From Phycisphaerales bacterium UBA1845 (GTDB lineage: Bacteria > Planctomycetota > Phycisphaerae > UBA1845), in contig DDIR01000073.1 in assembly GCA_002338715.1 (NCBI GenBank), positions 98,278 to 109,996 on the forward strand: a stretch of 11,719 bases of DNA, in the 5' to 3' direction. Under the pieces are notes generated by a model. The model was not told where the DNA came from, did not search any database, and worked only from the letters and a program-made list of their open reading frames with translations. Positions 1 through 11,719 of this stretch are shown here, one piece after another (the stretch's first letter is position 1; each line of letters opens with the position of its first letter). The translations under genes were made by a program, and so were the position numbers.

Positions 1-3000
1 GGAGCCAATCCGCGCAACCAAGCCGCCCAGATGAACAAGCAACTCGCCAATATGCAGGCGGCGATGAATAAGCAAATGAAGGAACTGGCAAAGCAGAACG
101 ACGCCGGCGGCGGTGAGAGCGACGGCAAGGATGAGCGTCGCCGCGGAAAAGAAGGTGAGGACGAAGAGGACGAGGATGGCGAAAAGGGGACGACGCCGGG
201 GGGAATCAGCGTGTTCCCGTATCCGGCGCTGAATGCGATCATCATCAAAGCCCCGACCGAGCTTTATCCGGCCATCGAGGAGTTGGTCGCGACGATCGAT
301 CGCAAGGGCGATTCCGACAGCGGTTACAAGTTTTTCAAGATCACCAACCAGCTCGCGTCAGATGTCGAAACGCAGCTCAAGCAGATTTTCGGTTTGGACC
401 AACAACAGCAATCGCGCCGCCCGAACACCCGTCAGCCGCGTGGTCGCAATCAAAACAACAACAATGCAGCCGCGGCGGCTGCGGCTGACCAGATGCGCGA
501 AGCGATGGCCCTTTCAGCCTTGGTTGGGGCTGACGGCGGGATGATCAGTTCGACCGAGACGATCACCATCGCCAGCAACGACGTGACCAACACGATCATG
601 GTTCGGGCCCCGAAGCGCATTCTTGAGGTGGCTGAGGAGATCATCCAGAAGATCGAAGAGCAAGCCCCCGAGCACATCGAGACGAGGGAATATCGATTGG
701 CCCATGCCGATGCCGAATCGGTGGTGACGTTGCTCGATCAACTCTACGATTCCGGAAGCGGTAACCTCAGCGAATATCACCCCGACAACGTCGAAGCGAT
801 TTTCAAAGCCGACGTGGCCAACAACACCGTGTATGTTCGCGCCAAGGTCAGTGCGTTCGAAAAGATTGACGAGGCGATCGCCAAGCTCGACGTCAAGCAG
901 GACATCGGCAACCTGCTGACCATCGACGTTCTCAACGGTGATGCGGAAGCAATCGCCGCGACACTCGAAGCGATCTATGGCGTCGGAAAGGGCAAGGGAC
1001 GTTCCAAGAGCGCCAATGCCCAGATCGAATTCATCGCCGATTCAGCCAGCAGCAAGATCTTCGTCCGCGCTCCCGAAAGTCTCCACGCCGAAATTCAAGG
1101 GCGGGTGGCTGAGATCGATGTGCCGCAGACCGGACTTGATATCAAAGTGTTCAAACTCAAGTACGCCAACGCCCCGCAGGTGCTGAATCAGATGAACACC
1201 ATGGTGAACAAGTTGCTCCAGCAGCTTCGAGCCACCAAGGCGAACATCAAGCTCGATCCGTTCAGTGCGGAAGCCGACCAGCGTTCGAATTCGCTGGTGG
1301 TCATGGGCGGACCGATTACGTTTGCGTTCGTGTCGCGCGTGCTGGCTGAGATCGACGTGGAAGCCGCGGCGCCGATGGAGATTCAGACGAAGGTCATCGC
1401 GCTCAACGATTCGGATTCCCGCGAAATCGCGGCGACGATCAATCGACTCTACGGCGGTCCCCAGCCCGACGGTTTGGATCCGCCCAGAGCCGAGGCGAAC
1501 GTGTCCACGAACACCGTGATCGTTCGAGGGACAGCCGGCCAACTTGATAAGATCGATGCGGAAGTCATCAAGAAGCTCGATGAGTTCGCCAGCGGTCCTT
1601 CCGCACCGGTGAAGAAAATTTATCAGATCAAGGAAGCCCGTGCGTCCAACGTTGCCGACGTCATCAACAGGTCGCTCCGAGGAGGCGGTCGCGGGTCGAA
1701 TAACAACATCAGCGTCGTTCCCGACGATGAACAAAACGTGTTGGTTATTTACTGCACGCAGAAAGATTACGATGAGTTGGTGCCGCTGATCGAGGAACTC
1801 GACAAGAAGCCTGACACGCAGTCCGAAGTCGTCGTTCGGGTGTATCAGATTGAATACGTTGAACCCAACTCAGCCGTCCGGGCGATTCAAGACACGTTCA
1901 AGGTTCCGCGCGGCGCGAAACCTCAGGACGAAGTCAAGGTCAACTATGTTTCGGGGACAAGCAGCCTGGTCGTCAGCGCAACACCAGAGAATCATTTGAA
2001 GGTGGCTGAGCTGATCACCAACGTGGACACCGAATCACCGGTGCAGCGCACCACCCACGTCATCGGGCTTAAAGACGCCAACGCCGAAGAACTCGCAGGC
2101 AAATTGTCTCAGATCATGGAGCGAACGCGTCGCCGTCGCCGCGACGATCAGGGGTTTGCGATCGTGGCTGATCCGGGAACGAACTCGCTTCTGGTCTTTG
2201 CCAACGAGTCCGAATTGGCGGACATCAAGGGATTGATCGAAACGCTCGACGTTCCGCAGCAGTTTGAACAGCAGGTCAAGTCGTTCAACCTCGAGTTTGC
2301 CGACGCGGGTTCGACGACGCAGGCGCTGACGCAATTGTTCGGTCAGGGGCGATCCAATCGTCGGGCCAGTCCTCGCGATCAGATCAAAGTCGTCCCCGCA
2401 TGGGGATCGAATGCGGTGGTGGTCGCTGGTTCTCCGCAGCACATCCAGGAGATCGAAGCATTCCTGAAGGATTATGATCAAAAAGGCACCGGGTCGCGCG
2501 ACGTCAAGGTTGTGCAAATCAAATATGCCAACGCCAGCGAGGTGGCGCGGGCACTTCAGGACATCTTCGTCAATCGCGGCCGCAACGTTCGCGGTCAGGA
2601 AACGATCAGCGTCACCGCGCCTTCCGGTTCGGATGCGATTCTGATCAAAGCCAGCGATGACGAGTTTGCGGAAATCACAAAAGTGATCGAGCAGCTTGAT
2701 GTGCTGCCGGATGACACCGATCGTTCGGTGCGCACGTTCACGCTTGAATACACCAATGCCGACGAGATGCAGACGATTATCGAAGACTACCTGCGCAAGC
2801 CGGGCAACGGCGGTGGTCGTCGCGGCCGCGGGGGTGGCGAAGAACTGCTTGGCAACATTCGTGTCAGCATCGTGAGTTCAAACAATTCGCTGGTGGTGAC
2901 GGGTGATGAAGACGGTTTGGCGCGGGTGGCATCGTTGATTGAAAAGATCGACGTCGAAACCGAAGCCGAGTCGGGCCCGCAGATCATCAAGCTCGAACGG

Positions 3001-3618
3001 GCGATCGCCAGCGAAGTCGAACCGACGCTGTCGCAGATTTTTGTCGAGGGCGCCAACCGCAACAGCGGGCGAAATCGGAATCGCGGCGGCGGTTCAACGA
3101 TGACGCCGGTGATCGTCGCCAACGACGTGACCAACTCGCTGATCGTGCGGGCCAACCCGGGCGACTTTGCCCAGATTGAACGTCTCGCGCACGAACTCGA
3201 CTCGGAAGAAGCCGAGGGCGAACGCGTCAAGTTGATCCAGCTTTCGTCGGCGTTTCGGGCGGATGACATCGCTTCAACCCTCGAGGCAACACTGGCAGCG
3301 GCGATGCAGCCGCGTGGTCAGGCTGGTGGTGGCAGTCGTCGGGGTGGACGCGGTGGACGAAACAGCGGGAGTTTGTCGGTTGAACCGATCTCGTCGAGCA
3401 ACTCGCTGCTGATCGCGGGTGACCCCAAGGAATTGGAGTTGGCTGAGGTGATCGTTGCTCAGATTCAGCAGCAGGGGCCGGCTGGCGGAAGGAAGACGTT
3501 GATTCTGACACCGGACAAAATGGATCCTGAAGATTTTAAGCGTGTCATTGAAGGCATGATCGAGCAGAATAACTCACAAGGTTCAAGGCGTTCGTCGCGG
3601 CGTGGGCGGCGGCGGTAA
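1..3618 (+). CDS. Poreless tandem secretin N-module protein, 5' partial
   Basis: The reading frame is open from base 1 to TAA at 3616-3618 (1205 residues visible). There is no stop before the first ATG at 31, so the true start probably lies upstream. Visible residues 1-68 are a charged, partly coiled-coil-like linker. Residues 69-100 are the second half of a module. Complete modules of 72-117 residues then start near 109, 226, 303, 379, 459, 537, 610, 682, 757, 833, 907, 990 and 1073. Each follows one plan: a strand (YRLAHADAE type), a helix, a variable loop, the strand motif D-x-x-(T/S)-N-(S/T)-(L/I)-x-V, and a second helix ending in LD. This is the secretin N / NolW-like fold known from GspD and PilQ. 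A half module starts at 1165 and the protein ends GSRRSSRRGRRR. No secretin core (VPxLGD, GGLI) is present. Loops carry Asn/Ala, Arg/Gly and RGG-like inserts. It is probably periplasmic, as a scaffold or partner of the downstream secretin. The fold is well supported; the role is inferred. Confidence 0.85.
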   Translation, partial: GANPRNQAAQMNKQLANMQAAMNKQMKELAKQNDAGGGESDGKDERRRGKEGEDEEDEDGEKGTTPGGISVFPYPALNAIIIKAPTELYPAIEELVATIDRKGDSDSGYKFFKITNQLASDVETQLKQIFGLDQQQQSRRPNTRQPRGRNQNNNNAAAAAAADQMREAMALSALVGADGGMISSTETITIASNDVTNTIMVRAPKRILEVAEEIIQKIEEQAPEHIETREYRLAHADAESVVTLLDQLYDSGSGNLSEYHPDNVEAIFKADVANNTVYVRAKVSAFEKIDEAIAKLDVKQDIGNLLTIDVLNGDAEAIAATLEAIYGVGKGKGRSKSANAQIEFIADSASSKIFVRAPESLHAEIQGRVAEIDVPQTGLDIKVFKLKYANAPQVLNQMNTMVNKLLQQLRATKANIKLDPFSAEADQRSNSLVVMGGPITFAFVSRVLAEIDVEAAAPMEIQTKVIALNDSDSREIAATINRLYGGPQPDGLDPPRAEANVSTNTVIVRGTAGQLDKIDAEVIKKLDEFASGPSAPVKKIYQIKEARASNVADVINRSLRGGGRGSNNNISVVPDDEQNVLVIYCTQKDYDELVPLIEELDKKPDTQSEVVVRVYQIEYVEPNSAVRAIQDTFKVPRGAKPQDEVKVNYVSGTSSLVVSATPENHLKVAELITNVDTESPVQRTTHVIGLKDANAEELAGKLSQIMERTRRRRRDDQGFAIVADPGTNSLLVFANESELADIKGLIETLDVPQQFEQQVKSFNLEFADAGSTTQALTQLFGQGRSNRRASPRDQIKVVPAWGSNAVVVAGSPQHIQEIEAFLKDYDQKGTGSRDVKVVQIKYANASEVARALQDIFVNRGRNVRGQETISVTAPSGSDAILIKASDDEFAEITKVIEQLDVLPDDTDRSVRTFTLEYTNADEMQTIIEDYLRKPGNGGGRRGRGGGEELLGNIRVSIVSSNNSLVVTGDEDGLARVASLIEKIDVETEAESGPQIIKLERAIASEVEPTLSQIFVEGANRNSGRNRNRGGGSTMTPVIVANDVTNSLIVRANPGDFAQIERLAHELDSEEAEGERVKLIQLSSAFRADDIASTLEATLAAAMQPRGQAGGGSRRGGRGGRNSGSLSVEPISSSNSLLIAGDPKELELAEVIVAQIQQQGPAGGRKTLILTPDKMDPEDFKRVIEGMIEQNNSQGSRRSSRRGRRR

Positions 3619-3787: not shown

Positions 3788-6700
3788 ATGTTGAAGCGAT
3801 CGATATTGGGATGGGTCCTGGCTGGTGCGGTGCTGTTGCCGCAACCGTTGTTCGCCCAAAGGGCAGACGACGATGCCGACGGCAGACGCCAACCGGCTGG
3901 ACGACGCAATGCCGGCGACAACAGGGCTGAAGACAACAGGGCTGATGCCGACGGTGTACGCGACAACAACAGCAATGCCGACGGAGGCAGCGAGCGCGCA
4001 TCGAAAGAGCCCATGGATCTCAATCTCAGCGGCGCGGAGATCAAAGTTGAGGTTGTCGGCGACAACGTCGTTATCTACGGGCTTGAAGACGACCTGGATA
4101 TTGTCGAAGAGTTGATGAATCGACTCGACGGCGAATATCAGCCGCAGGGTTATCGCGTTCTCAAGTTGCAAAGCAAGAACGCGCAGAACATCGCCAGCGT
4201 CGTACAGCAAGCCGCAACAAAACTGCGTGGTCCATCGCCACGTCCCGATGAAGAAATCGCGGTTCAAACCATCGCGAACAACATCCTGCTGGTGACCGGT
4301 CCGGAATCATCCCTCGATCAAATTGAAACGTTGGTCAAGTTGCTGGATGAGCAGGATTCCGGTCTGCCCGACTTTGATTCGGAAACGTACGAACTCAAGC
4401 ATATCAAGGCAATTGAAGCCGCTCCGAAGTTGGAGGAACTGGTCAATGCCTTGCGTCAGAAGCAAGGCGAGGACCCGGCCAGCAAAATCACGATCACACC
4501 ATTGGACGCGAGCAATTCGCTGTTTGTGATCGCGCCGAAGACGGAGCATGAAAAGATTCGCGAGTTGATCAACCGTCTCGACGTCGAACCGATGAAGGGG
4601 TTTGGCGATTTGACGCTGGTCCACTTCCCGCTGCTCAACAGCAAAGCCACGGGCATGGTCGATGTGCTCGATAGTTTGCTCAAGACGGCTGACACGTCCG
4701 ACGCGGTGAAAGAGACGATTCGTCGCCTGCGGATGATCAAAGCCTCTCCCGACGGCACGCAGGTCGAATTGCCGGTGCTCGATCTCGAACGCCAGATCAA
4801 ACTGATCGCCGACGAAGAGTCGCAGGCGATCATCTGCGCGACGGCTGAGGAAAACATCGAACCGCTGGGTGAACTCATCCGGCTGCTCGACAGCGTTCCG
4901 CTGGCTGAAGAGCAGAACCTCCGCGTGTATCCACTCGCCCATGCTGATGCAGCCGGGGTGAAGGAACTGCTCGACGAAATGTTTGATGCGGGCAAGGACC
5001 TTCCCAAACCGGCGCCGGGCAGCGAGACGACCGAAGCCGTCCCGACCAATGCCATTGGCCGATCGCTGGTTTACAACGTTGCGATTTCAGCCGACGCCCG
5101 CACGAACACGCTGGTGGTTGCCGGCCGCACTGAACAGCTTGTGCTTGTGGATGGTTTGATTCAGAAGCTCGACGTGCCCATGTCGGAGATCAAGTACCCG
5201 ATCCGCCTCATCACGATGACGAACACCGACGCGACGCGCATCGGCAAGATCGTCGAGGACCTGTGGGAGAAGCGTATCGAGAACATGGAGAAGCTCGAGC
5301 TCGGCGAGTCGGCGCTGGCGAAGGAAAAGATTTTCCTGTCGACCGACATCCGCTCGAATTCGCTGATCCTTTCGGCAACTGCCGAGAATTTTGAAGAGAT
5401 CAAGAAGATCGTCGAAACACTCGACGGCGCGCCCGAGCGCTTCAGCGATCAGATTCGCATCATCAACTGCACGGTCGCGTCAGCCGGCGATTTGAAAAGT
5501 AAAATCGACGAGTTATGGCAACGAAAAGCCGAGCTTCGCGGGGAGGCTGACATCCCGCAGGACTCGCCGGTGGTCGTCGCCGACCAGCGCAGTAACGCAC
5601 TGGTGATCGCGTCGGGTCCCGATGACTTCGAAGAAATCAAGCGCTTGGTCGAGCAGTTGGAATCTCAGCCGCTCGCACCCATCGCCGAGATTCGCACGAT
5701 CGAGCTGGCCAACAACGACGCGACGCAAATCGGCGACATGCTCAAGGAACTGTTCGAAGAGCGCCTGCAGCAGCGATTGGCTGAGGGGCAGAATGAAAAC
5801 CCGTCGGATCGCGTGGCGATTGTCACGGAACCGGTGACGAACACGATTTTGGTGGCGTCGTCGAAGGACAACTTCGATGAGATGGAGCGGCTGATCAAGG
5901 CGCTCGACGTCGAACTCGATCCGGAAGGCGTGATCCGCGTATTTCCGCTCGAAAACGCGCAAGCCGAGAACGTGTCGGAAAAGATCAACGAATTGTTTGA
6001 AGAAGGTTTGTACCTCGGCGCGGTGGGGGCGGAGAACGACATCATCGAGCAGCGTCAGAAGGTGTCGCTGGTGGCCGACTCGCGTTCCAACGCGGTGATC
6101 GCCAGTGCGTCGAAGACCAACCTGAGCATCATCGAAAAGCTCATCTCGCAGATGGACACCGATCGTGCCCCGCTGGTCAATGCCGACACGCGCATCTTCC
6201 AACTCAAGAACGCCGACCCCGTCAAGGTCGGCAGCATGATGGACACGCTCTTTGAAGGGATGGAAGCGAATTCCGACGGCGATTTCAAAGCGCCGACGAT
6301 CGTACCCGACGCGATGAGCAACACGCTGATCATGACCGGGTCGCGCGACGCGATCAAACGCTCGACCGAAATGCTCGAATCGCTCGACGTGCCCGTGTCG
6401 GCGAAGTCGGCGATCAAGGTTTATCCGTTGCACGAAGCGTCAGCCGTCAAGCTCACCAGCAAGATTGAAAACATCTTTGAAGGGCGCCAGGAAGGTGCCG
6501 ATGGCGAACGCACGCCCGTGTTTGTGATGGCCGACGAAGCCACCAACAGCATCGTGTGCAGCGCTTCGCCCGAAGATCACAGCACGCTTGAGCATCTGCT
6601 CTCTTTGCTCGACGTTCGCTCATCCATCAGCCGACAGGTGCAGGTCTTCCCGCTAAGGCAGGCCAAAGCTGAACCGACGGCAACGTCGCTGGAAGCGCTG

Positions 6701-9013
6701 TTTGAATCGCAGGGGCAAGACAACCAAGGACGGGCTGACGTGATTGCCATCGAACCCGACCCGCGGACAAATTCGCTGGTCGTGTGGGCGTCGAGTTCGG
6801 AAATGGACAACATCGCCGACGTCATCAAGAAGATGGACACGTCCGTGCCCGGTCCCGAAATGATGCTTCGCGTCATTACGTTGAAGCGGGCCTATGCGAC
6901 CGAGTTGGCGGAGGTGTTGGCCAACACGATTTATGGCGGTGAACAGTCGGGTGGTCGTGGCGACGATGAAAAAGCGGTCATTTTGAAGTTCGTGGATACG
7001 CTGCCCGACGGTCAGAAGAAACTGCGCACGCTGATGCGACAGGATATCACCATTGAACCGGACGAACGGACGAATTCGCTGTTTGTTCTCGCACCAGCGG
7101 CCAGCATGGACATGCTCGAAAGCATGATCCAGTCGATCGATCGCATTGATCCGATCCTTAGCGAAATCCGGATGTTCCCGCTGGCCAATGCCGACGCCGA
7201 GGAAGTCGTGGATGTCTTGACGACATTGTTCGAACAAGACACTTCAAACGAAGGTCCGGAGACCCGCCTGGAAGTCGGTGGAGCCGCGACGACGGCTTCG
7301 ACTGCTGGAACGGACGCACGGTCGCCCGGTCAGCGATTGAAGTTTACGGCCAACCGTCGCACGAACTCGGTTATCGCTGCCGGTGCGGAAGCCGACTTGA
7401 ACATGGTCGAAGATCTGATTCGTCAGCTGGACGGTCAGGATGTCGACGAACGCATTCGCCACGTCTACGAAGCCAAGTATGTGCCCGCGACGGATATCGT
7501 CACTGCCCTGAAGGAATACTTCGACGCGGAGAACGAACTGCTGGGTGATCTCGATGACGAGACGGCTGTCCTGCGTCGCGCCGAGCGTCATGTGACGGTC
7601 GTTGCGGATGAAGACAGCAACACGGTGCTGCTCGGTGTGAGCCCGCGTTACTATCAGCGGACCATGGAAATGTTGTATTCAGTCGATAGGCCTCCTCCCC
7701 AGGTGGTCATCGAAGTGTTGATCGCGGAAGTCGCGCTCGACGACTCGCTCGAGTTCGGTATGGAGTTCGCCCTTCAGGATCTCTCGTTCAGCAAGAACGC
7801 GACGGTCGACGCCAATGGTATCGTCAAAGGCCGCAACTTTGACTTTGTCGGTGGAACGGATGTCGGCGCGGGCGGTGCGAGCGGTTCGTTTGGCGGATTT
7901 ACATTCGCGATCACAGGGGCGGACTTCAACTTCCTGCTTCGTGCATTGCAGTCCGACGGCAGCCTGGAAGTGCTCAGCGCGCCGACGATCGTTGTCTCGA
8001 ACAATCAGGAAGGCAACATCACCATCGGTGACCAGGTGCCGTTCCTGCGTGGTTCGCAGGTGACTGATAACGGCCAGGTCAATTCGCAGGTCGATTACGA
8101 AGACGTCGGTATCATTGTGGACGTGACCCCGCACATCAATCCGGACGGTTACGTCAACATGGAAATCCATCCGGAGATTTCGTCGCTGAACTCAGGCAGC
8201 AATGTGCAGATTTCAGAGGGTCTCAGCGCACCGACCTTTACGAACCGCTCGGCTGAGACGACCGTCACCGTCAAAGATGGCGAGACGATCGTCATCGGCG
8301 GTCTGATCCAGACGCAGGAAGACGAGCGCGAAACGAAAGTGCCGGTGCTCGGCGATCTGCCGGGGGTTGGCAATCTTTTCCGCGCGACCACGAGTCAGCG
8401 TCGCCGGACGGAGCTGCTGATTCTCCTGACGGTCAACGTGGTGCGTAATGAACTGGATGCAGCCGAGCAGTCGCGACGTCTTCGCGATCAGAGCGGGTTT
8501 ATGCCCAAGCGCATCACCCGCAACAAGCTGATGCAGGGCCTGCGCATTCTGCCCGATGACGAAACGCTTCAGGATGTCCCGCCGTATCGCGAGATTGAGT
8601 CGCCCGATACGTTGCAGCCGCTCGATCCGCCGATGCAGCCGATCAGTCAGCCGCGTCCCAATACCTACGGTCCGACGCGTCCGATGAAACCGAAAGACAT
8701 CAATCAGAAGACGGCGGCTGGTGTCTATGGACCACCGCGTCCCGGGATGACGGCATCGATGGTGTCACGCCCGGCGACGTACATGCCGGTGACTTCGGTC
8801 GAGTCGGTTCAGCACACGGGTTATCAGCATTCGGTGAGTGCACATCAATCGGTAAATGCTCAGCCCGTCGCCCCCGCAATGCAGGCGATGACGCCTGTTC
8901 CGGCCGCTCGTCAGGCGTCAGTTGCGCCGCGTCCGCAGCCAACGGCGATGCCAGCCGCCAACCGTTCAAATTCAAATGAACCGCTCGTTCTGGAAATGGT
9001 GGAGGTGCAGTAG
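3788..9013 (+). CDS. Giant secretin with 14 tandem N modules (GspD/PilQ superfamily)
   Basis: A 1741-residue outer-membrane secretin; T2SS GspD is usually about 650-700. The ATG at 3788 has AAAGGG at 3774-3779 and gives a signal peptide (MLKRS, hydrophobic core, LFA|Q, cleavage after 23). Residues 24-75 are an Asp/Arg/Asn-rich linker. Residues 76-119 are the second half of an N module. Complete modules start near 120, 198, 273, 377, 470, 554, 633, 713, 799, 873, 949, 1024, 1125 and 1221, most with a TN(S/T)L-type strand. The secretin core spans about 1306-1552: VVIEVLIAEV, the gate motif VPFLRG (1417), GGLI (1504), VPVLGDLPGVGNLF (1518) and a final LLILLTVNVV strand. The last 189 residues are Pro/Gln-rich with two YGPxRP motifs (1627, 1647) and may serve for pilotin or surface contacts. 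Secretins form multimeric rings whose N modules stack in the periplasm. The family assignment is firm; the cargo (export, uptake or pilus) is unknown. Confidence 0.95.
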   Translation: MLKRSILGWVLAGAVLLPQPLFAQRADDDADGRRQPAGRRNAGDNRAEDNRADADGVRDNNSNADGGSERASKEPMDLNLSGAEIKVEVVGDNVVIYGLEDDLDIVEELMNRLDGEYQPQGYRVLKLQSKNAQNIASVVQQAATKLRGPSPRPDEEIAVQTIANNILLVTGPESSLDQIETLVKLLDEQDSGLPDFDSETYELKHIKAIEAAPKLEELVNALRQKQGEDPASKITITPLDASNSLFVIAPKTEHEKIRELINRLDVEPMKGFGDLTLVHFPLLNSKATGMVDVLDSLLKTADTSDAVKETIRRLRMIKASPDGTQVELPVLDLERQIKLIADEESQAIICATAEENIEPLGELIRLLDSVPLAEEQNLRVYPLAHADAAGVKELLDEMFDAGKDLPKPAPGSETTEAVPTNAIGRSLVYNVAISADARTNTLVVAGRTEQLVLVDGLIQKLDVPMSEIKYPIRLITMTNTDATRIGKIVEDLWEKRIENMEKLELGESALAKEKIFLSTDIRSNSLILSATAENFEEIKKIVETLDGAPERFSDQIRIINCTVASAGDLKSKIDELWQRKAELRGEADIPQDSPVVVADQRSNALVIASGPDDFEEIKRLVEQLESQPLAPIAEIRTIELANNDATQIGDMLKELFEERLQQRLAEGQNENPSDRVAIVTEPVTNTILVASSKDNFDEMERLIKALDVELDPEGVIRVFPLENAQAENVSEKINELFEEGLYLGAVGAENDIIEQRQKVSLVADSRSNAVIASASKTNLSIIEKLISQMDTDRAPLVNADTRIFQLKNADPVKVGSMMDTLFEGMEANSDGDFKAPTIVPDAMSNTLIMTGSRDAIKRSTEMLESLDVPVSAKSAIKVYPLHEASAVKLTSKIENIFEGRQEGADGERTPVFVMADEATNSIVCSASPEDHSTLEHLLSLLDVRSSISRQVQVFPLRQAKAEPTATSLEALFESQGQDNQGRADVIAIEPDPRTNSLVVWASSSEMDNIADVIKKMDTSVPGPEMMLRVITLKRAYATELAEVLANTIYGGEQSGGRGDDEKAVILKFVDTLPDGQKKLRTLMRQDITIEPDERTNSLFVLAPAASMDMLESMIQSIDRIDPILSEIRMFPLANADAEEVVDVLTTLFEQDTSNEGPETRLEVGGAATTASTAGTDARSPGQRLKFTANRRTNSVIAAGAEADLNMVEDLIRQLDGQDVDERIRHVYEAKYVPATDIVTALKEYFDAENELLGDLDDETAVLRRAERHVTVVADEDSNTVLLGVSPRYYQRTMEMLYSVDRPPPQVVIEVLIAEVALDDSLEFGMEFALQDLSFSKNATVDANGIVKGRNFDFVGGTDVGAGGASGSFGGFTFAITGADFNFLLRALQSDGSLEVLSAPTIVVSNNQEGNITIGDQVPFLRGSQVTDNGQVNSQVDYEDVGIIVDVTPHINPDGYVNMEIHPEISSLNSGSNVQISEGLSAPTFTNRSAETTVTVKDGETIVIGGLIQTQEDERETKVPVLGDLPGVGNLFRATTSQRRRTELLILLTVNVVRNELDAAEQSRRLRDQSGFMPKRITRNKLMQGLRILPDDETLQDVPPYREIESPDTLQPLDPPMQPISQPRPNTYGPTRPMKPKDINQKTAAGVYGPPRPGMTASMVSRPATYMPVTSVESVQHTGYQHSVSAHQSVNAQPVAPAMQAMTPVPAARQASVAPRPQPTAMPAANRSNSNEPLVLEMVEVQ
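9001..9007 (+). promoter_or_regulatory. Shine-Dalgarno inside the end of the secretin gene
   Basis: GGAGGTG lies in the last codons of the secretin gene. GGAGG is 9 bases before TTG 9015 and 15 bases before ATG 9021, both in frame with the downstream lipoprotein. This supports a start just after the secretin stop (9011-9013) rather than the in-frame ATGs at 8922 or 8976. It also suggests translational coupling of the two genes. Confidence 0.55.
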
Positions 9014-9020
9014 TTTGTCC

Positions 9021-9536
9021 ATGTTGCGTTTCGTTGCGAGTGCGTGCGTGGGAATGTGCGCGATTTTGAGCGGTTGCAATGACCCGGCTTGGTCATTTGA
9101 TCAATCGGGCTCGCATGCGCGCGGGTCGGATATTTACAAGGTCGTTTGCTTTTATCCGCCGAACATGTGGCGCAGTTTCGATGAAGCCGGCGATCGCAAC
9201 ATCGAGGGCTTCACCTTTATTCTCTATCTGATTTCATCCACTTCCGAACGCGGCGCGCTGGCGGACGGTACAATCGATGTACAGATATTTACGGTCGATA
9301 CCGTCGATGGCGTTCAGTCAAGCCGCGTATTGGCATACGAGTGGAGTTGCCCCACGACTGAACTTCCGGAACGCAATCCGACCAAACTCGGTCACGGGTA
9401 TCAACCATCGGTCGACTGGGATACGCTTGATCTGTTCAACCGGGACATCGAAGTGCTTGTGCGCTACGTGGCTCCGGATGGGTCGATCGTCCCCAGTCGA
9501 ACGGCGTCGCTCAAAGTCCCGCCCCGTAAATTGTAA
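9021..9536 (+). CDS. Small putative lipoprotein following the secretin gene
   Basis: From ATG 9021 this gives 171 residues. It begins MLRFVASACVGMCAILSGC, a short lipoprotein signal peptide with lipobox L-S-G-C, so Cys19 would be the lipidated first mature residue. TTG 9015 is an alternative start better spaced from GGAGG at 9001-9005 and would add two residues. ATG 8976 would give a longer n-region and is less likely. The mature part has alternating hydrophobic stretches suggesting a single mostly beta domain (GFTFILYLIS, TIDVQIFTVD, DIEVLVRYVAPDGS, TASLKVPP). I do not recognise a family. It follows the secretin stop by 7 bases, so it is very probably in the same transcript. Secretins often need a small lipoprotein pilotin or accessory, so that role is plausible from position only. 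The CDS is fairly certain; the function is unknown. Confidence 0.8.
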   Translation: MLRFVASACVGMCAILSGCNDPAWSFDQSGSHARGSDIYKVVCFYPPNMWRSFDEAGDRNIEGFTFILYLISSTSERGALADGTIDVQIFTVDTVDGVQSSRVLAYEWSCPTTELPERNPTKLGHGYQPSVDWDTLDLFNRDIEVLVRYVAPDGSIVPSRTASLKVPPRKL

Positions 9537-9722: not shown

Positions 9723-10088
9723 TTACGGTGAGAAGCTGCTGCCGCAACCGCAGGTGCTGGTGGCGTTGGGGTTGCTGAACACGAACCCTCGGCCCATCAT
9801 CTCGTCGCGGAAATCGATCGCGACACCGTTGAGGTACAGATAGCTGCGCGGGTCGCAGACAATCTTGATGCCTTCCTGTTCGAAGACTTCGTCCTCGGAA
9901 CTGCTTTGATCGGTCAGGTCGAGCGTGTAGTTGAAGCCGCTGCATCCACCACCCTTGACGCCGACGCGAAGGAACAATTCCTCGACCGGTTTGTCGTTCT
10001 CGGTGTGCTCGGTTTTAAGGCGTTCCAGTTGCTGCGTCACGATCGTGTTGACTTCTTTTGCGGCGGCTGCACTCAGTGAGATACCCAT
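9723..10088 (-). CDS. erpA: A-type iron-sulphur cluster carrier ErpA/IscA/HesB
   Basis: A 121-residue cytoplasmic protein that binds [2Fe-2S] or [4Fe-4S] clusters and delivers them to apoproteins. The three conserved cysteines of the family are present: Cys49 in GGGCSGFNY, and Cys113 and Cys115 in STCGCGSSFS near the C-terminus. These two motifs match the ErpA subgroup more closely than IscA (TSGCSGMAY, ECGCGESF), hence the symbol; function as the general A-type carrier is certain, the subgroup less so. Length is normal for the family (about 107-120). An extra Cys78 is not a family ligand. ATG at 10088-10086 is preceded by AAGG with about 8 bases spacing. No isc, suf or nif gene is adjacent, so the gene appears to stand alone with its own promoter and terminator, which is common for erpA. 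It is convergent to the secretin operon and probably unrelated to it. Confidence 0.96.
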   Translation of the reverse strand: MGISLSAAAAKEVNTIVTQQLERLKTEHTENDKPVEELFLRVGVKGGGCSGFNYTLDLTDQSSSEDEVFEQEGIKIVCDPRSYLYLNGVAIDFRDEMMGRGFVFSNPNATSTCGCGSSFSP

Positions 10089-10991: not shown

Positions 10992-11000
10992 TGTTATGAT
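10992..11000 (+). promoter_or_regulatory. Candidate extended -10 promoter of the STN gene
   Basis: TGTTATGAT fits an extended -10 element (TGnTATAAT with one mismatch). No good -35 is present; TTCGCC at 10970-10975 is too far away at 19 bases. The predicted start near 11007 leaves a leader of about 28 bases before ATG 11035, which contains the ribosome site GGGAG at 11023-11027. Confidence 0.4.
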
Positions 11001-11034
11001 CCATCCAGACAGACCTTCCTTTGGGAGAATTGGC

Positions 11035-11064
11035 ATGCGTCGATCAATCATGCGTCGATCAATG
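11035..11064 (+). repeat. Tandem 15-base duplication at a start codon
   Basis: ATGCGTCGATCAATC is followed at once by ATGCGTCGATCAATG; the copies differ only at the last base. The protein therefore begins MRRSI-MRRSM, with two equivalent start codons and two basic n-regions in the signal peptide. GGGAG at 11023-11027 is 7 bases from the first ATG, which favours that one. Confidence 0.9.
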
Positions 11065-11719
11065 ATGACAGTTGCGATATTGCTGGCTGGTTCCATGCAG
11101 GTCAGCGCTCAAACTGCAACCTCCAAGTCCGGTCAATCCAAAGACAATCAAGCCAAGGGAGGAAGCAAAGCCACCACGACGAATCGATACACGGCTGATC
11201 GCCCGCTGATGCCTGGTTCGCGCCGCAACATGGACGGATCACGGGCGGTGTCACGGCGTGTCGCTCCGGCAGTAGCAACGCTCAACAAGCGCGTTGAATC
11301 GGTCGAGTGGGACGATGCGCCGCTGGAGTCGGTGATCGAATGGTTGCGTGAGCAGGGTCCAAAAACAAACGTGATCGTTGTCTGGCGGGCGCTCGAAGCG
11401 CAGGGCATTGATGCGGATACGCCGGTGACGCTGAAGTTTCGTGATGCAAGGGTCGGTCAAGTTCTCGATGAAGCGCTCAACCAGGTAGCCGACGGCGCTG
11501 AACTTCGTTTTCGCGGTTCGGGCAATACCATCAAGATTTCCACCCGCAGCGACCTCAATAAGAAGTTATACGTTCGTGCCTATGACGTGAGTGATCTGAT
11601 CTTCGAAGTGCCTGATTTCAAAGGTCCGCGCGTGGATGTCACCGGCGGTGGCGGAGGCGGCGGATCGGGCGGTTCCGGAGGAGGCGCGGGTGGCGGCTTT
11701 GGTGGTGGTGGAGGCGCCG
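11035..11719 (+). CDS. Exported STN-domain, glycine-rich protein, 3' partial
   Basis: Open for 228 codons to the window end with no stop. A signal peptide with a duplicated basic n-region (MRRSIMRRSMM) and a hydrophobic core ends VSA|Q, with cleavage after residue 25. Residues 26-80 are a polar Lys/Ser/Thr/Arg-rich linker. Residues 86-170 (KRVESVEWDDAPLESVIEWL ... VTLKFRD ... VLDEALN ... NTIKIST) fit the STN domain, the short N-terminal domain of secretins and TonB receptors: beta-helix, VTLkf strand, helix LdeaLn, and a closing I-K-I strand. Next comes LYVRAYDVSDLIFEVPDF, then from 204 an almost pure Gly tract broken by Ser, Ala and Phe. This order (signal peptide, STN, YDVSDLI, Gly-rich) resembles planctomycete secretin-related proteins as I recall them, but whether a secretin core follows cannot be seen. 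It has its own candidate promoter and ribosome site. The STN assignment is good; the role is inferred. Confidence 0.88.
   Translation, partial: MRRSIMRRSMMTVAILLAGSMQVSAQTATSKSGQSKDNQAKGGSKATTTNRYTADRPLMPGSRRNMDGSRAVSRRVAPAVATLNKRVESVEWDDAPLESVIEWLREQGPKTNVIVVWRALEAQGIDADTPVTLKFRDARVGQVLDEALNQVADGAELRFRGSGNTIKISTRSDLNKKLYVRAYDVSDLIFEVPDFKGPRVDVTGGGGGGGSGGSGGGAGGGFGGGGGA

Follow-up and report, generated by a model that had tools for sequence, protein, structure and literature searches.

Complementary half modules at the ends of two neighbouring giant proteins suggest a two-chain type II secretin in Phycisphaerales

The window analysed here, a stretch of 11,719 nucleotides from Phycisphaerales bacterium UBA1845 (GenBank assembly GCA_002338715.1, contig DDIR01000073.1, positions 98,278 to 109,996 of the forward strand), carries a secretin gene with 14 full N1 modules and, directly upstream, the end of a second giant gene that consists of the same modules. 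We propose that both gene products form a two-chain giant secretin of type II secretion, in which half modules at the facing chain ends complement each other and join the chains end to end, and we assign this reading a probability of about 0.7. The secretin encoded at 3788-9013 is about a third of a gate of approximately 40 modules. The relevant features are located as follows (window positions):

1..3618, plus strand: C-terminal 1205 amino acids of the N-only giant, with 14 full N1 modules and without a secretin core (Pfam, module profile); its 5' part is found farther upstream, outside the window
3487..3567, plus strand: last N1 module of the giant, first half only (strand 1, helix 1; half-profile test)
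3568..3615, plus strand: tail rich in Ser and Arg that follows the half module and ends in RRGRRR (sequence itself; relatives have similar tails)
3788..9013, plus strand: secretin of the GspD type, 1741 amino acids (Pfam and NCBIfam profiles)
3788..3856, plus strand: putative signal peptide, cut after LFA before Q (by eye)
4034..4135, plus strand: leading N1 module of the secretin, second half only (strands 2-3, helix 2; module and half profiles)
4151-4351, 4382-4588, 4625-4894, 4916-5176, 5201-5425, 5450-5665 and 5687-5914, plus strand: full N1 modules 1-7 of 14, the whole row covering 4151..7687 (module profile)
5933-6163, 6185-6391, 6413-6616, 6632-6841, 6866-7144, 7163-7432 and 7460-7687, plus strand: full N1 modules 8-14 of 14 (module profile)
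7943..8446, plus strand: secretin core, PF00263 (Pfam)

In the 1741-amino-acid frame, Pfam recognises 13 Secretin_N stretches and one Secretin core (PF00263, residues 1386-1553), the latter with 175.3 bits against a cut-off of 27.5, which places the protein in the secretin superfamily. A module profile made in this analysis finds 14 full N1 modules, the worst of them with an independent E-value of 8.3e-11, and residues 83-116 give a weak match to the second half of the module (profile positions 37-72 of 72, E 0.043). Both searches thus bear out the first-pass annotation, which had read 14 full and one half N module in front of a secretin core. The protein also belongs to GspD according to TIGR02517 (633.6 bits, cut-off 351.35); this score sums eight stretches, so that the repeats raise it. 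What had to be corrected is the view of the 14-module chain as a complete unit, since it is only part of a set of 39-42 N1 modules that is distributed over two genes.

The N-only giant, which the first-pass annotation had overlooked, precedes the secretin directly in all seven relative loci (L011-L017). In the window genome its gene is broken just upstream of the window by a 111-base run of N (L007 8168-8278), beyond which a further 1573 amino acids of the same protein type follow. Ungapped giants comprise 2804, 2807, 2812 and 2787 amino acids (L011-L014) or 2994 and 3018 amino acids (L016, L017), and the giant of L015, with 2926 amino acids, stops early. The giant of L011 has 24 N1 modules at the strict threshold and at most three weaker ones in addition, i.e. 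up to 27. Around residues 1400-1440 of this protein there is a second stretch resembling a signal peptide, which is also found in fused relatives and is possibly an older joint. Another N-only protein (P0325, 5501 amino acids) has 58 strict modules and ends with a half module and a basic tail.

A profile of 43 giant-type heads matches residues 262-349 of an ordinary GspD of 922 amino acids (E 1.3e-11), in which the corresponding Pfam domain, GspD N0, occupies residues 269-338 with 43.1 bits (cut-off 27). Judged by this correspondence, the head of the giant is an N0 domain. The profile detects the N0 head in 36 of 38 giants, in 188 of 197 one-chain relatives and in none of the 134 split secretins, which consequently lack the canonical single-chain arrangement with N0 heading the same chain as the core (0/134). 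The 43 heads were drawn from giants and one-chain relatives that were then counted themselves, and partial or broken-looking N-only rows (P0023, P0262, P0301, P0302, P0311, P0314 and L015) were kept in the count. A match of one head to phosphopantetheine adenylyltransferase (E 0.0036) was judged to be due to chance, and a search of viral contigs with the giant head gave no match.

The two chains meet inside a module. The giant closes with the first part of an N1 module, strand 1 and helix 1, followed by the basic tail, and the secretin, past its putative signal peptide and a charged, low-complexity linker, begins with strands 2-3 and helix 2. Above 3 bits, 30 of 33 giant tails match a first-half profile and 4 of 33 a second-half profile, while shuffled tails never reach this score with the first half (0/165). 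Conversely, 126 of 131 secretin heads match the second-half profile and 1 of 131 the first-half profile, with 3 of 655 shuffled heads passing with the second half (627 of the 655 shuffles gave a score). Full modules from the window genome and L011-L017 served to build the half profiles, these ends being excluded. Near-duplicates, i.e. one locus as a P, L or G entry, are contained in the half-profile and N0 sets; three giant duplicates were removed, and two of 35 giants (P0023, L015) were omitted from the half-profile test due to their short tails. The three tails that did not favour the first half were P0328 and P0036 (both strand-helix by eye) and P0301 (which looks frame-shifted), and 5 of 131 secretin heads stayed below 3 bits with the second half. 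A fixed sequence pattern for giant tails caught only 17 of 35, and the half-profile test was used instead.

Relatives in which both parts are present in one chain, in the same order, provide further evidence. Searching the phylum with the giant head matched 4 of 392 genomes, two of them weakly or over a short length, and is therefore a poor census, yet it led to a one-chain frame of 4624 amino acids with N0, 45 modules (strict) and a core. Three protein searches yielded at least 329 distinct proteins (for the first two, the best 120 of 163 and the best 120 of 555). Among the matches listed, 179 proteins with a core and more than 2500 amino acids have 24-50 modules (median 43), and 119 shorter secretins have 11-18 (median 14), both by the strict count and in sets that were chosen by similarity and are not a census. 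The single frame of G425 reaches 6165 amino acids and 61 N1 modules; its stretch is free of N and the frame has no repeated 40-mer. In seven close one-chain relatives (G497, G393, G421, G436, P0027, P0028 and P0029) the matches to the giant end and to the secretin start are 69-187 residues apart and flank one module. By our reading, the joint falls within a loop of a module in the split pairs as well as in one fused group.

The insert that interrupts this module contains a hydrophobic stretch that closes with A-x-A-Q, except in G393 and G421, where the ending is A-x-G-Q. This stretch resembles a signal peptide and could have been retained as a relic of gene fusion or as a cutting site. In an alignment of 19 of these the Q is invariant and each flanking A is conserved to at least 90 percent. 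Of the 22 proteins in this group, one (P0045) is unreadable by pattern, and a hydrophobic 12-mer exceeds the threshold in 20 of the 21 readable inserts, although this is a weak control, as 24 percent of composition shuffles reach the threshold as well. A strict signal-peptide rule, demanding a core without charged residue, Q, N, H or P, recognised the junction segment in 4 of 17 close one-chain relatives (6/98 of their loops). Among 180 further one-chain relatives, 61 of 873 loops satisfied it. This rule was dropped; the segment is seen in nearly all proteins only by the alignment and by the less stringent test for hydrophobicity. Many one-chain proteins have similar hydrophobic stretches in long inserts elsewhere.

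Four of seven fused loci (G497, G393, G421 and G487) have an in-frame start codon in the interval from the half module to the hydrophobic segment, and none of the four codons is preceded by a sequence resembling a ribosome-binding site; G436, G492 and G431 have no start codon there. Internal translation start was rejected as a general explanation, since only 4/7 loci have the codon, and this rejection does not extend to those four.

In a monomer model of residues 942-1610 of the secretin, four modules of the order strand-helix-strand-strand-helix precede the secretin core. A model of the joint of a one-chain relative shows two half modules around a disordered insert, and the rebuilt module together with its neighbour fits PulD 124-258 with 3.2 Å over 135 residues.

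Taken as a whole, the most likely function of the two proteins is that of an outer-membrane channel of type II secretion with a periplasmic part that is extended about tenfold and divided between two chains. The N-only giant would be located at the inner membrane, because it carries N0, and the secretin chain would supply the core in the outer membrane. The half modules would complete each other and thereby couple the chains end to end, giving an assembly of one N0 and 39 to 42 N1 modules. If the modules form rings on one axis, the tube might span a wide periplasm, and with approximately 40 rings it would exceed 100 nm.

Well-studied secretins have a handful of N modules. With GspD (TIGR02517; solved structures 5wq7, 5zdh and 6hcg) the present system shares the secretin core, the N1-type modules, N0 at the inner end and the gsp operon. 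It differs in having 39-42 N1 modules instead of about three in GspD, in carrying N0 and the inner modules on a second chain, and in the meeting of the chains inside a module. An extended periplasmic part of type II secretins in Planctomycetales was reportedly described in the abstract of a 2020 study by Mahajan et al. The six N rings of PilQ from Thermus thermophilus, in a complex 350 Å long, are called unusual (PMC5745081), so the earlier claim that the secretin has far more N modules than the well-studied ones holds. Thermus PilQ resembles the present system in its longer-than-usual row of N modules in a wide periplasm and, unlike it, is one chain with six N rings that serves the type IV pilus and DNA uptake. 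Planctomycetes can have a greatly enlarged periplasm, as stated in an excerpt of PMC5394234 that does not mention secretins. Among the matches listed in a literature search, titles and abstracts contain nothing on giant or split secretins.

Here the same N module is used approximately 40 to 60 times, in a chain that some lineages keep whole and others divide within a module. Provided that the halves pair, they would be a natural split domain coupling two giant proteins end to end, and a direct prediction for type II secretion across a very wide planctomycete periplasm would follow. A gene-by-gene reading overlooks two thirds of the machine.

Several observations weigh against this proposal. 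Both monomer models have a low predicted template modelling score (0.42 for the window piece, with a mean predicted local distance difference test value of 69, and 0.37 for the one-chain joint). The model of the window piece fits GspD structures only domain by domain, with root-mean-square deviations of 9-19 Å, and most fits of the three modules of the joint together deviate by 7-16 Å. Three of the 27 modules of the giant are weak by the module profile, and Pfam gives no N0 match in the four heads tested. The repeats leave the alignment registers ambiguous, and in some one-chain relatives, such as G497, the giant matches best in a register other than the one that reaches the joint. Finally, 40 rings of about 2.5-4 nm each add up to at least 100 nm, which is beyond any periplasm width known to us for this class.

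A more far-reaching version holds that the giant secretins of this order always consist of two mature chains, which are held together by a split module that they share. In fused genes, the internal signal peptide (A-x-A or A-x-G before the invariant Q) would be cut after export. Gene fusion would account for the growth of the approximately 40-ring tube of at least 100 nm, whose old joints would still be recognisable by degenerate internal signal peptides. A polyprotein cut in this way would deliver equal amounts of the inner and outer tube parts. We regard this version as speculative, and on balance doubtful.

It is also conceivable, if unlikely, that the modules are not coaxial rings. The chain might fold back or, as a flexible tether, allow the pore in the outer membrane and the base in the inner membrane to separate within a wide, invaginated periplasm, which would be compatible with two chains. 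The great length of a 40-ring tube and the inter-module orientations, which are predicted without confidence, speak for this, whereas the preserved N1 pattern, the short linkers between the modules of the secretin and the alignment, in one model, of the interrupted module plus its neighbour with the PulD arrangement speak against it. We consider it quite improbable that the secretin works alone with 14 rings, next to an N-only giant that is a separate periplasmic scaffold or plug and a neighbour by chance. The secretin does have its own gene and passes the GspD cut-off alone, and core-less ring proteins are present in other systems; however, it lacks N0 and begins with a half module, and in relatives a single chain unites the two parts, arranged in the same order. 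That the split is artefactual, a one-chain gene broken by misassembly or a frameshift, as the existence of one-chain relatives and the N-run inside the giant gene of this genome might suggest, has a negligible probability, since the N-run is more than 3 kb away from the split, the split also occurs in contigs without N-runs (L011-L014, L016 and L017), the secretin begins with a segment resembling a signal peptide and 36 split rows group in the tree described below.

The proposed division into two chains can be followed in a tree of 141 secretin cores, in which the clade of this order comprises 55 rows (40 split, 15 fused) with a support of 100 in the Shimodaira-Hasegawa-like approximate likelihood ratio test (SH-aLRT); the 36 split rows mentioned above are grouped with an SH-aLRT value of 94. 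The split and fused states require three changes on this quick tree, which was made without bootstrap and does not tell fusion from fission. One change is due to G463, where a contig end lies inside the gene. Two real changes remain, which means that the split arose or was reversed on at least two occasions.

In the organism's own class long secretins are common, and another class of the phylum has them as well. The first-pass annotation had proposed a census of N-module number across bacterial phyla, which we ran by frame length within the phylum. It revealed that long frames are ordinary in the class Phycisphaerae, where, by hand count, a secretin frame of at least 1200 amino acids is present in at least 51 of 150 genomes and one of at least 3000 in at least 33 of 150. 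They are present in one further class, with frames of at least 2000 amino acids in at least 31 of 198 genomes, at least two of these frames exceeding 3000. In three other classes none reaches 1200 amino acids among the matches listed, the longest having 951 (75 genomes), 1139 (17) and 1007 (3). The frames may be shortened by contig ends, and the counts are confined to these classes.

The neighbouring genes include GspG as well as members of the Pfam families T2SSF (GspF) and T2SSK_1st (GspK), all over their cut-offs and indicative of a gsp operon. The GspF equivalog, a GspH-like gene, two more pseudopilin-like genes and a PilM- or GspL-like gene stay below cut-off, and a GspE-like ATPase was recognised by eye only. 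For the GspM-like gene, the window genome yields no family match; in L016, T2SSM_b comes just short of its cut-off. Directly behind the secretin follows a small lipoprotein gene:

9021..9536, plus strand: lipoprotein with a Gly-Cys lipobox; all 8 aligned sequences, from the window and from L011-L017, keep the Gly-Cys

The product has no Pfam match above cut-off and is a candidate pilotin or accessory protein. With this gsp gene set and the lipoprotein, the locus is a type II secretion system.

The long GspM-like neighbour (L007 1837-3432, L016 2027-3844) has a proline-rich linker in the window genome. It shows a PKD-like match just below the cut-off in L016 and above it in L015, and by eye its C-terminal part could replace GspC, at which no search was aimed. 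An iron-sulphur cluster assembly protein (PF01521), encoded at 9723-10088 on the minus strand, adjoins the secretion operon. At 10996-11718 a further protein starts, which is cut by the contig end and whose STN match of 17.8 bits is weak and stays below cut-off; at the corresponding place L012 has a frame of 347 amino acids (17297-18340), which is without a Pfam match above cut-off. In the genome G000 there are five further secretin matches with frames of 436-775 amino acids. The record of L014, a close relative of the window, is titled Alphaproteobacteria and is probably a mislabelled bin.
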